From positions 1 to 64,000 of the forward strand of contig JADLDR010000033.1 in NCBI GenBank assembly GCA_020846535.1: DNA of 64,000 nucleotides, in the 5' to 3' direction. Made by a program: the position numbers and the translations under genes. Shown piece after piece: positions 50,787 to 59,580 of the stretch. The DNA is from Armatimonadota bacterium. Its GTDB lineage: Bacteria; Armatimonadota; JADLDR01. The notes under the pieces were generated by a model. That model worked only from the letters and a program-made list of their open reading frames with translations, made no database searches and had not been told where the DNA came from. Each line of letters starts with the position of its first letter. Position 1 is the stretch's first letter.

Positions 50787-51156
50787 GCATTGTGGACGCG
50801 GTCGAGCGATAGCCCGCAGGTGCAGGCCTCCCAGCACGCGCTTGTAGGAGCGGGCGAAGGAGGGGTGCGTCCGCCAGCACGGCAGACGAGTCAGCAGGAG
50901 AGACTGGCTTCGCAATGCATGCGCCGTTATTCCCTATATTGGCCTGACGCGCGGAAAATCCTTCTTGTGGGGTGCTGGCGTTCCAGCCCTATAGCAATCC
51001 AGATAAGGTTTTGGAGAGTTCGGGCATTGAAAATCTCGTCTATGTGGCATGAGACGGCAGCCCTCTATCCCGGAAAAGGAAATTCTGAGTTCGCATCGAA
51101 TTGTAACTATCCGCGCTGCTCGAATGCGCCCCTGTCTCCGGTAAAGGAGGTATCCG
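50787..51156. other. Non-coding gap with a solo family A end
   Basis: No gene is seen. At 50987-51010 the run CCCTATAGCAATCCAGATAAGG matches one inverted end of family A without a core or tag, so it may be a remnant. A SD (AAAGGAGG) precedes the next gene. Confidence 0.5.
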
Positions 51157-52296
51157 ATGCGATGCAAACCATGGCTCGCCGTGTTCGCATGCCTGCTGGG
51201 CTGCGGGCTGCCGCCTGCGCTCCGGGCCGATGAAAAGGCTGACGCCTTGCTGAAAGAGATGCAGGACACCCTCAAGGCGGCTCAGACCTTTTCGGCGAAA
51301 TCGTCCGTGAAGGTGGAAAGCAAAGAACAAAAGGTCGTTATGCAGCACGATATGACGATGCAGCTGAAGAGGCCGAACCTGTTGCGGCTGGAAGTGAAGA
51401 TGAGGAACGACGGCGATAACAGCCGGACGATGGTGTCCGATGGGAAAAACCTCTGGATGCTCATGCAGCCCGAGAACCAGTATCAGAAGATGGCTACGCC
51501 GCCCGAGGGCCGGATGCTGGACGGCTCTCTCATGATGCCGGTCGGATTTTTCGATCCCCAGACATTGACCATGTTTGGGCCGGAGAAGAAAACGCGCTTC
51601 GTCGGCTCCCAGACAGTGGACGATAAAGAGTATACGGTCATCGAAATTACCACTGAGCAGCCCACCCCCATCAAGGCCAATCTCTTTGTAGGGGCGGACA
51701 AACTGCTCCACCGGGCTGAAATGAATATCGGCCCGGACGGGAACATGAAATATGTGATCGAGTATGCCGATATCAAGATCGGAGAGGAAACTTCCGATTC
51801 CGCATTCGCCTTCAAGCCCCCGGCAGGTGCCAAGGCAGCCAAAAGCCCGGAGGATGACCTCCTGGCCGTCGGAAGGAAAGCGCCTTCCTTCAAGCTGCCT
51901 GCCCCTTCCGGCAAGACGATCACTCTGGAGAACACGCTGAAGGGCAAGAAGGCGGTGCTGGTCAATTTCTGGTTCCATGGGTGAGGGGCCTGCCGTGAGG
52001 AGTTGCCTCACCTTCAAACCCTTTACAAGCAGTACAAAGCCAAGGGATTCGATATGATCGCCATCAACTACGGCGATTCGCGCAAGGAAATTCTCGACTA
52101 TGCCCGCAAGAGCGGCTTCACCTTCAAGATGGCGATGGGCGAAAAACAAGGAAAGAACACGGTGTTCAGCCGATACGGGGTGCAGGCGTATCCTACCAAC
52201 TACCTGCTGAACGGCAAGGGCAAGATCGTCTTCCGCTCGGTCGGCTTCGATGAGGCGGGCCTCAAGGCCGCTTTGATAAAAATGGGCATCAAATAA
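51157..52296 (+). CDS. DUF2092/LolA-like + TlpA-like redoxin, candidate selenoprotein
   Basis: 379 codons if UGA at 51982-51984 is read as Sec. A signal peptide (MRCKPWLAVFACLLGCGLPP) is followed by a DUF2092/LolA-like lipid-binding domain (about 25-225; KRPNLLRLEVK, SDGKNLWMLMQPENQYQ), then a TlpA/AhpC-TSA-type thioredoxin fold (VGRKAPSFKLPAPSGKTI). The fold's active-site segment reads NFWFHG-U-GACREELPHLQ, where relatives have NFW..xCxxCREE: UGA replaces exactly the first Cys of CxxC (U276, C279). Downstream the frame stays open and well conserved (YGVQAYPTNYLLNGKGKIV). A hairpin follows the UGA. A chance nonsense mutation is the alternative. SD AAAGGAGG precedes the ATG. Confidence 0.82.
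51995..52011 (+). promoter_or_regulatory. SECIS-like hairpin
   Basis: GTGAGG / CCTCAC, a 6-bp stem with the loop AGTTG. The loop begins 16 nt after the UGA and has a G in its second position. This agrees with the bacterial SECIS pattern (apical loop 16-37 nt after UGA, G among the first two loop bases). By-eye fold only. Confidence 0.6.
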
Positions 52297-52310: not shown

Positions 52311-53447
52311 TTGGAGCAGATCAGACTCTACCGCACTCCTGAATACCAGGATTGCATGAAGATCCACCTGGGGATCTCGGAGACAAAGATCGATATCAGC
52401 CGGCTCTGGGCACCGACCTACCGGATGCGGATCGGGTCGGCGGAGGTGAAAATGGGCGGCATCGCCGGGGTCGGGACGGATGACGACTGCCGGTTGCGCG
52501 GCTATTCGCGTCTGGTGATGGAGGAATCTACCCGCTACTTCAACGAAACCGGCCACGATATCGCTGTCCTCTTCGGAATCCCCGATTTCTACCACCGCTT
52601 CGGCTACGCGCCTGCGCTCGTATCCTCGGCCATGGTCGTCAGCGTGAAGGATGCGCTTCTCTCCCTGGCCGGAACGCGCATCCCGGCCCATACGCTCCGC
52701 CCGATGGTGGAAGAGGACAGGGCAGGCATCCTTGATATCTACCATGCCGACACGGCTCATAGATCGGGATGCCTGGTGCGCTCTCCCGAAGAATGGAAGG
52801 GCTTTTCCAAGGGAACCTCCTATGAGTGCGGGTCCCGCCCTCTTGTCCTCGAAGGGGATTCAGACGGGCTGCTGGGGTACATCGTTTTCGATGAGGTCGA
52901 AAACGAGTGCCGGATCGGGGAGGTCGGCGGCAGGTCGCCGGCCATCTACCCCGCGCTGCTGAAGGCGATGGCGGAACAGGCCCAGCAAAAAGGAGCGCCC
53001 TCATTTATCCTCAGGTTGCCCCTGGATCATCCCTTCATCTTCTTCTGCCGCCGCTGCGGGGGAGAATCGAGTTCCTACTGGCATCGCAACGCCGAGGGGA
53101 TGGCGCGGCTGATCAACCTGGAATCCCTGATGACCAAGCTGACGGGCCTCTTCACCCATCGCCTGCGCGGTTTTCCGCTCCCGATTGCGCCGCTGGCATT
53201 CCGCACCGACCTGGGAACTGTAACCCTGACCTTCCGGGATGGCCAGGCCGGGGTGGGCCCGCAGGCATCCTCGTCCTTGACGGTATCGATTCCGCAGATG
53301 CGCCTGGCTCAATGGGTCATGGGCTATCGCGCGGTGGCGGATGTAATCCTTGATGAAGGTGTGGATGCGCCTGAAGAAGCTGTGCCGTTGCTGAAAGCCC
53401 TCTTCCCGCCCGGAACCCCGTGGATGCCTATGACAGACTGGTTTTAA
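52311..53447 (+). CDS. GNAT acetyltransferase, Eis-like
   Basis: 378 aa from a TTG with AAGGGAG upstream. An N-terminal GNAT domain (GGIAGVGTDDDCRLRGYSRL, then FGIPDFYHRFGYAPALVSS) is followed by a second GNAT-like domain (LRPMVEEDRAGILDIYHADT) and a C-terminal SCP2-like domain (LTLTFRDGQAGVG). This three-domain order matches Eis-type N-acetyltransferases. The usual C-terminal carboxylate is represented by DWF at the end. Substrates of Eis relatives are amines, including aminoglycosides and peptides; none is indicated here. Follows the redoxin gene by 14 bp, so probably co-transcribed. Confidence 0.82.
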   Translation: MEQIRLYRTPEYQDCMKIHLGISETKIDISRLWAPTYRMRIGSAEVKMGGIAGVGTDDDCRLRGYSRLVMEESTRYFNETGHDIAVLFGIPDFYHRFGYAPALVSSAMVVSVKDALLSLAGTRIPAHTLRPMVEEDRAGILDIYHADTAHRSGCLVRSPEEWKGFSKGTSYECGSRPLVLEGDSDGLLGYIVFDEVENECRIGEVGGRSPAIYPALLKAMAEQAQQKGAPSFILRLPLDHPFIFFCRRCGGESSSYWHRNAEGMARLINLESLMTKLTGLFTHRLRGFPLPIAPLAFRTDLGTVTLTFRDGQAGVGPQASSSLTVSIPQMRLAQWVMGYRAVADVILDEGVDAPEEAVPLLKALFPPGTPWMPMTDWF

Positions 53448-59202: not shown

Positions 59203-59580
59203 ATGCGTTCCGATGACGCCTCGCCGAATGTCGTTCTGGCGGTGGTGGCCGGGTTGGAAATCCTGATCATGCTGGCCGTGCTGTCGGTGCTGCTGCCCCG
59301 GTTTGCGGCGGTCTACCAGCAGATCGGAGGGGCGCAGGCGTGGTGGTATCCGCTGGCCTTCTTCCTGAAGCGATTTCTCGGGCTGACCTGGGTGCTGGGG
59401 CTGGCGGCGGTCGGCGCGCTGATCCTGCGGGCCTCGCAGGACGAGAGCGAGTGGATGCGCCATGGATTGCAACTCTTCTGTTTTCTGCTGGGACTGCTCA
59501 TCCCGCTGACGATTTTCGCGCTTTTCCAGCCGATGGTCGGGAGTATTCATGAACTCGGCAATTTCGAGCAGGACATGTGA
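59203..59580 (+). CDS. Small polytopic membrane protein in T2SS operon
   Basis: 125 aa with about three hydrophobic spans (VVLAVVAGLEILIMLAVLSV, WVLGLAAVGALILRA, LFCFLLGLLIPLTIFALFQ). The segment LPRFAAVYQQIGGAQAWWYP recalls the loop that precedes the last helix pair in GspF (LPRLQGVFQEMGAALPLPT), so it may be a shortened GspF-like paralogue. Overlaps gspK by 32 bp. No known T2SS gene occupies this place. Confidence 0.65.
   Translation: MRSDDASPNVVLAVVAGLEILIMLAVLSVLLPRFAAVYQQIGGAQAWWYPLAFFLKRFLGLTWVLGLAAVGALILRASQDESEWMRHGLQLFCFLLGLLIPLTIFALFQPMVGSIHELGNFEQDM

Follow-up and report, generated by a model that had tools for sequence, protein, structure and literature searches.

A very probable selenocysteine-containing redoxin with a fused LolA-like domain in an Armatimonadota genome

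We have analysed a stretch of 64,000 nucleotides (the window) from a metagenome-assembled genome of the phylum Armatimonadota, in which one gene on the forward strand, at 51157-52296, very probably incorporates selenocysteine (Sec) at an in-frame UGA codon, to judge by its sequence and that of its relatives. Proteins of this kind are found again in related bacteria, and we therefore take the gene to encode a genuine selenoprotein whose general type is known; that Sec is inserted and that the product works as a redoxin we regard as nearly certain. The features of the gene are as follows.

51143-51150, forward strand: AAAGGAGG, a strong ribosome-binding site 6 nt 5' of the ATG, read directly in the sequence.
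51157-52296, forward strand: selenoprotein coding sequence, 379 aa with Sec at residue 276 and stop TAA, from translation with the TGA read through and from full-length TGA or Cys homologues.
51157-51228, forward strand: probable signal peptide, residues 1-24 (...PPALRA/DEK), assigned by eye.
51238-51837, forward strand: DUF2092 / LolA-like domain, residues 28-227 (PF09865 at 61.3 bits, PF03548 at 26 bits; LolA chains are among the PDB sequence and fold matches).
51868-52254, forward strand: Redoxin / ResA-TlpA-like thioredoxin domain, residues 238-366 (PF00578 at 76.1 bits, PF08534 at 73.3 bits; ResA and DsbE-like structures at Z 19-21).
51982-51984, forward strand: UGA codon, very probably Sec 276, position 1 of the UxxC, from the sequence and the column alignment.
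51991-51993, forward strand: resolving Cys 279 of the UxxC, invariant in alignment A1.
51995-52011, forward strand: bacterial SECIS hairpin GTGAGG-AGTTG-CCTCAC, from folding, homologue comparison and covariation.
52192-52194, forward strand: proline 346 (AYPTN), invariant in alignment A1.

The original prediction had placed the UGA in one continuous frame, behind a DUF2092/LolA-like domain and ahead of the remainder of a thioredoxin fold, at the first position of its redox motif. The frame indeed contains exactly one TGA (context NFWFHG-U-GAC-REE), the Pfam domains lie before and after it as described, with the AhpC-TSA/Redoxin match (residues 238-366) running across the codon, and the motif U276-G-A-C279 is the UxxC of a ResA/TlpA-type domain. 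The Pfam scores are well above their cut-offs (PF00578, 76.1 against 26; PF08534, 73.3 against 26.6; PF09865, 61.3 against 21.2). Alignment A1 is invariant at columns 276, 279 and 346 (U shown as C), that is, at the CxxC/UxxC pair and at the fold proline, which we take to be the cis-Pro position of the thioredoxin fold. The N-terminus is of low confidence in the structure model, and an ADEKADALL-like start following the putative signal peptide is conserved in homologues. Downstream of the UGA the codons are intact for 103 residues (104 when the UGA is included, as had been counted), and the decay of the 3' part that would have spoken against a selenoprotein was looked for and not found, as identity to the 12 other members of A1 is 41-58% after the TGA vs 19-32% in the N-terminal domain, and the GC content of the three codon positions resembles that of coding DNA both before the TGA (0.56/0.39/0.76) and after it (0.50/0.36/0.77).

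A standard ORF caller gives two genes here, 51157-51984 and 52003-52296 (with a TTG start), the mis-annotation that had been foreseen. It could accordingly be argued that the UGA ends a 275-residue protein, the 3' part being either a separate small gene (51985-52296) or the far side of a regulated stop with occasional Cys or Trp read-through. The genome does use TGA as a stop: the 41 long non-overlapping frames of the window end in TGA (19), TAA (11) or TAG (11), in a crude list that includes one antisense frame of the selenoprotein gene, ending in TAG, and UGA is therefore not reassigned wholesale. However, the cut would fall inside the redoxin fold, between the active-site strand and helix, the second ORF would be left without the UxxC, and the Cys homologues are single continuous proteins, so that we find the two-gene reading scarcely credible. 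The antisense open frame opposite the gene (51040-52149, 369 codons) has no Pfam match and is probably a shadow of high-GC coding. The downstream neighbour, in the same direction at 52311-53447, encodes a GNAT acetyltransferase with an SCP2-type domain. When the whole window was scanned, 57 TGAs were preceded by 80 open codons and followed by 60, and a strict hairpin rule left 3 of these; the two further candidates, at 59214 on the forward and 55800 on the reverse strand, resemble shadow frames (judged by eye only) and were set aside.

The second element expected of a bacterial selenoprotein gene is the SECIS hairpin, and a 6-bp stem with loop AGTTG, beginning its loop 16 nt after the UGA, had been proposed. 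It is present at 51995-52011, with 10 nt between the UGA and the stem, and among homologues it is conserved only in those with TGA. The bSECIS model, in the part of a 2026 review that sets it out (PMC13188914), has a loop of 3-9 nt, a stem of 4-16 bp, a G in the first two loop positions, a spacing of 16-37 nt and an energy of -7.5 or lower. The hairpin obeys every one of these rules as given there, with a loop of 5 nt, a stem of 6 bp, G at loop position 2, a spacing of 16 nt and a folding energy of -7.7 to -8.8 kcal/mol. The folding of the single sequence is not significant (z -0.7 to -1.8), and with such weak z-scores we dropped the energy of the lone sequence as evidence. When the UGA and upstream bases are included, the preferred fold is a competing helix in which the UGA itself is paired and which a ribosome standing at the UGA would be expected to melt.

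The comparison of homologues is much more telling. All six pairs are found at the exact offset in 28 of the 32 distinct Sec rows vs none of the 98 Cys rows, the latter reaching at most 5 of 6 pairs. The Sec rows that fall short are L094 and L096 (5 pairs each), L031b (4, counted by eye from the bases) and L024 (0, with its own hairpin at +25). This final count takes in L031b; the covariation and synonymous-coding analyses used 31 Sec rows. Under free synonymous coding, only 0.58 of the 31 would be expected to have all six pairs, and for the peptide of the window gene itself the probability of the hairpin is 0.0053 under the codon use of the window, where CGT makes up 7% of Arg and CCT 15% of Pro codons. 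Paired cells amount to 95.7% in the 31 rows, vs 82.0 when shuffled and no more than 65.1 when slid, and the covariation score is 0.382, vs 0.161 and at most 0.149 respectively; the Sec rows are kin, hence these shuffle comparisons are not probabilities. Compensatory double changes occur at 4 of the 6 pairs, with 25 cells changed on both sides, and further pair types are not above the shuffles (6 vs 7.7). Alignment columns 17 and 27, for example, pair as A-U in 16 of the 31 rows, C-G in 12 and U-A in 2, the Pro codon changing together with the codon that lies two residues past the UxxC. As the hairpin overlies the codons for R-E/A-E-F/L-P-H directly 3' of the UxxC, RNA structure and peptide are bound together. 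As far as sequences can decide it, the contrast between TGA and Cys homologues and the covariation settle the question, and we consider the hairpin to be real.

These homologues come from a phylum-wide search in which 65 of 291 genomes matched at E <= 1e-20, and the relatives compared are at their nearest members of the same phylum. At column 276, where the prediction had asked for Cys or UGA, the 131 distinct alignable loci have TGA (31), Cys as TGC or TGT (98) or Asn (2, L021 and L025, kept out of both the Sec and the Cys counts); 12 identical loci had been removed. A further TGA copy, L031b, brings the distinct TGA loci to 32, the window gene among them, and the in-frame UGA thus falls where the homologues have Cys. 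The named loci, the best 80 of 104, come from a search with peptide patterns in which CREEFPHLQ-like peptides are favoured, which biases the peptide but not the choice of codon. Several relatives are identical to named Armatimonadota MAG copies (Armatimonadaceae, Chthonomonas, Abditibacteriaceae), from which we take the phylum to be Armatimonadota, and the Actinomycetota label on L083, L085 and L093 is probably a mislabelling. In another homologue of the N-terminal part (L070, G064:C4) there is an in-frame TAG and the alignment ends at residue 241; it cannot be aligned at column 276 and is outside the Sec and Cys counts.

One could still suspect a nonsense mutation or an assembly error that turned the Cys codon of an ordinary redoxin gene into TGA, as TGA is one base away from the TGC and TGT of the Cys homologues and the assembly is a fragmented MAG. 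Against this, 31 further distinct loci share the TGA at this column, and they belong to several genera and, going by their record labels, to no fewer than three phyla; the hairpin accompanies TGA and not Cys, the downstream region is conserved and coding-like, and the full set of sel genes is present. We judge such an accident extremely improbable, and the selenoprotein reading is the one followed below.

Ten full-length TGA proteins have the same layout (the window protein, L057, L058, L060, L029, L061, L062, L083, L043 and L031b). Six of them (the window protein, L057, L058, L029, L083 and L043) give a Pfam match to DUF2092 or LolA; the other four have an N-terminal part of similar length that reaches no Pfam family. 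Cys versions with this layout include L028, L059, L030 and L063. Genome G006 (locus L031 on C469) has two adjacent paralogues that differ at column 276, one with Sec (FYGUTACKAEF), the other with Cys (FHGCPPCRAEF). Planctomycetota and Acidobacteriota records (L094-L111) contain Sec redoxins that are more distant but have a hairpin of this kind, and the five with a long N-terminus that were scanned for domains (e.g., L094, L103, L107 and L111) have other or no recognised domains there. A quick-method tree of 70 rows (the 32 Sec rows and Cys rows with an alignment score > 200) needs 18 Sec/Cys changes, only 3 of which are forced by starred branches; most forks are weak and we make no claim about the number of switches. 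The Cys homologue L059 retains 5 of the 6 hairpin pairs, and SelB was not found in its genome (78% complete). Five or more pairs arise in 8 of the 128 synonymous codings of its peptide, and that it is a fossil of a Sec-to-Cys change is only suggested by these data.

All four genes of the Sec machinery, whose search had been proposed as a check, are in the same assembly. The tRNA-Sec (selC), on C153, scores 72.1 bits (cut-off 47), with ARAGORN in agreement and anticodon TCA, the next Rfam match being a tRNA-Ser. SelB (C39, 370 bits, cut-off 242), SelA (C167, 526 bits, cut-off 268) and SelD (C237, 358 bits, cut-off 125) complete the set. The SelD gene has itself an in-frame TGA early in the protein, in the motif SAG-U-ASK (L161:1484-1560), a position at which Sec is known in SelD. 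The assembly is a fragmented MAG (6.14 Mb in 253 contigs, completeness 96.05, contamination 8.38%), which raises the question of whether the sel genes and the window share an organism. By tetranucleotide profile, the four sel contigs correlate with the window at r 0.84-0.87, other sampled contigs at 0.69-0.91 and foreign loci at 0.22-0.61, but the latter are shorter and the window's own 7-kb pieces reach only 0.58-0.75, so that this match, confounded by length, lends weak support to a single organism. Across the 65 strong-match genomes, SelB exceeds its cut-off in 16 of the 17 with a strong TGA match (TGA column checked in 15, all but G086 and G138) vs 26 of the 48 without (Fisher p 0.003). 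The one exception is genome G106, 88% complete, in which the hairpin of the TGA homologue is perfect and SelB was not found. Among the 48, G020 gives TGA matches that are weaker, and no SelB reaches the threshold there, for which incompleteness (it is 88% complete) is the one explanation at hand.

The genome contains at least six candidate selenoproteins, namely the window gene, SelD and four redoxins. One of the latter, L020:262-2016 (in the region G000:C12:39149-39559), has an in-frame TGA in the motif STYULSC and the same kind of hairpin, and its frame runs on into an ArsP_1-type permease (PF03773, 177.6 bits), a Sec redoxin-permease fusion; a CcdA/DsbD_TM gene lies ca. 3 kb away on C12. 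The other three (L017, L024 and L026, on C119, C214 and C86 of the genome, G000) have TGA at position 1 of the UxxC.

With regard to the function, we used an AlphaFold2 model built from a 13-sequence alignment with U entered as C (pLDDT 86.0, pTM 0.67), which has LolA and ResA folds. The N-terminal domain matches LolA structures with Foldseek E values of 1e-13 to 1e-10 and aligns to 4mxt with a VIA-align Z of 18.1 over residues 24-231, and its profile match to LolA chains covers residues 34-226. It shares its fold with the outer-membrane lipoprotein carrier LolA (PF03548, TIGR00547) but differs in being fused to a redoxin and in its low identity (15-19%). As it scores 43.9 bits against the LolA equivalog TIGR00547, under the curated cut-off of 112, it is to be called a LolA-like fold and not LolA. 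The C-terminal domain model aligns with DsbE/ResA structures at Z 19-21 and with AhpE/Bcp-type peroxiredoxins at Z 17-19. ResA (NF002854; PDB 1st9 and 4nmu) provides the best PDB sequence matches and is among the best fold matches of this domain, yet it has Cys in place of Sec and lacks the LolA-like domain; the score for the ResA subfamily NF002854, 83.6 bits, is below the curated cut-off of 170. The NCBIfam WAxxUGC selenoprotein family (NF041054) gives only 26.7 bits, under a cut-off of 300, and the motif here is UGAC, not UGC.

We propose that SelB, carrying selenocysteyl-tRNA-Sec, would bind the hairpin, which lies 11-27 nt past the UGA, and that, as conservation and the presence of all four sel genes suggest, Sec would be inserted at position 276 to give a single protein of 379 residues. 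The probable signal peptide would direct it across the membrane, and the mature protein would consist of a LolA/DUF2092-type half-barrel followed by the ResA/TlpA-type redoxin. Towards extracytoplasmic substrates the UxxC could then serve as a fast reductase of the thiol-disulfide (or selenenyl-sulfide) type, re-reduced most likely via DsbD/CcdA proteins; the genome encodes two DsbD_TM proteins (on C91 and C12), which are putative donors. Our guess is that the LolA-like part probably serves to dock the redoxin on a partner that is hydrophobic or lipidated. Altogether, the most likely reading is that of a periplasmic or extracytoplasmic Sec thiol-disulfide reductase, fed by DsbD/CcdA and docked by its LolA-like domain, with export, donor and substrate all being predictions; taken by itself, a disulfide-reductase role seems likely to us.

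A different role for the same selenoprotein would be that of a peroxidase, similar to peroxiredoxins, acting on lipid or lipoprotein hydroperoxides presented by the LolA-like cavity. LolA is a carrier of lipidated proteins, and its fold is that of the N-terminal domain; AhpC-TSA is the best Pfam match, and the alignments with AhpE and Bcp point in the same direction. We consider this role rather unlikely, since the arrangement is UxxC and reductases of the ResA/DsbE type match best in both structure and sequence. A bolder reading would be a Sec-based, lipid-associated envelope redox repair protein, in which the half-barrel would hold an oxidised lipid or lipoprotein for the tethered UxxC redoxin to reduce, in a family specific to Armatimonadota lineages with repeated switching between Sec and Cys; as a whole this is decidedly doubtful.

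The selenoprotein reading of the original prediction has held, but the kind of protein is not new. A thiol-disulfide isomerase-like selenoprotein (cd02966, TlpA-like) with UxxC was described from the Sargasso Sea (Zhang et al., 2005; PMC1088965) and is listed in a table of the 2026 review (PMC13188914). It has in common with the window protein the redoxin/TlpA-like domain, Sec at position 1 of the UxxC and the Cys partner; in the accessible portions of both sources the redoxin domain alone defines this family, with no mention of a LolA/DUF2092 domain. The redoxin family selenoprotein PF08534 of the same review table has the same Pfam domain and motif, and no fusion is named in that part of the review. 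Fusions of Sec thioredoxin-fold domains with other domains are known from the GOS set (Zhang and Gladyshev, 2008; PMC2398784), the partners in the portion available being a PP2C phosphatase, a distant secretin N domain and unknown domains, none of them named LolA or DUF2092. Armatimonadota does not occur in the 2026 review (PMC13188914). In a literature search that left most subscription papers outside, we found no published report of DUF2092 together with a redoxin or a selenoprotein, and no match for Armatimonadota or Chthonomonas with selenocysteine. As far as the listed records go, Armatimonadetes with selenoprotein matched only work on Planctomycetes genomes, and the matches listed for LolA with selenoprotein are unrelated by title. 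The extra domain is unusual, as had been said of the fusion, but the fusion is not unique, as the ten full-length Sec forms attest.

What was known already is thus the Sec redoxin with UxxC, and what is added here is the fused LolA/DUF2092 layout and the phylum. Such a family would be missed because a standard ORF listing cuts the gene in two at the UGA. The finding adds to the Sec thioredoxin-fold proteins a Sec redoxin that is probably targeted to the envelope and carries a domain of the lipoprotein-carrier type, and its Sec and Cys versions, found side by side, are a natural set in which to ask what Sec buys.
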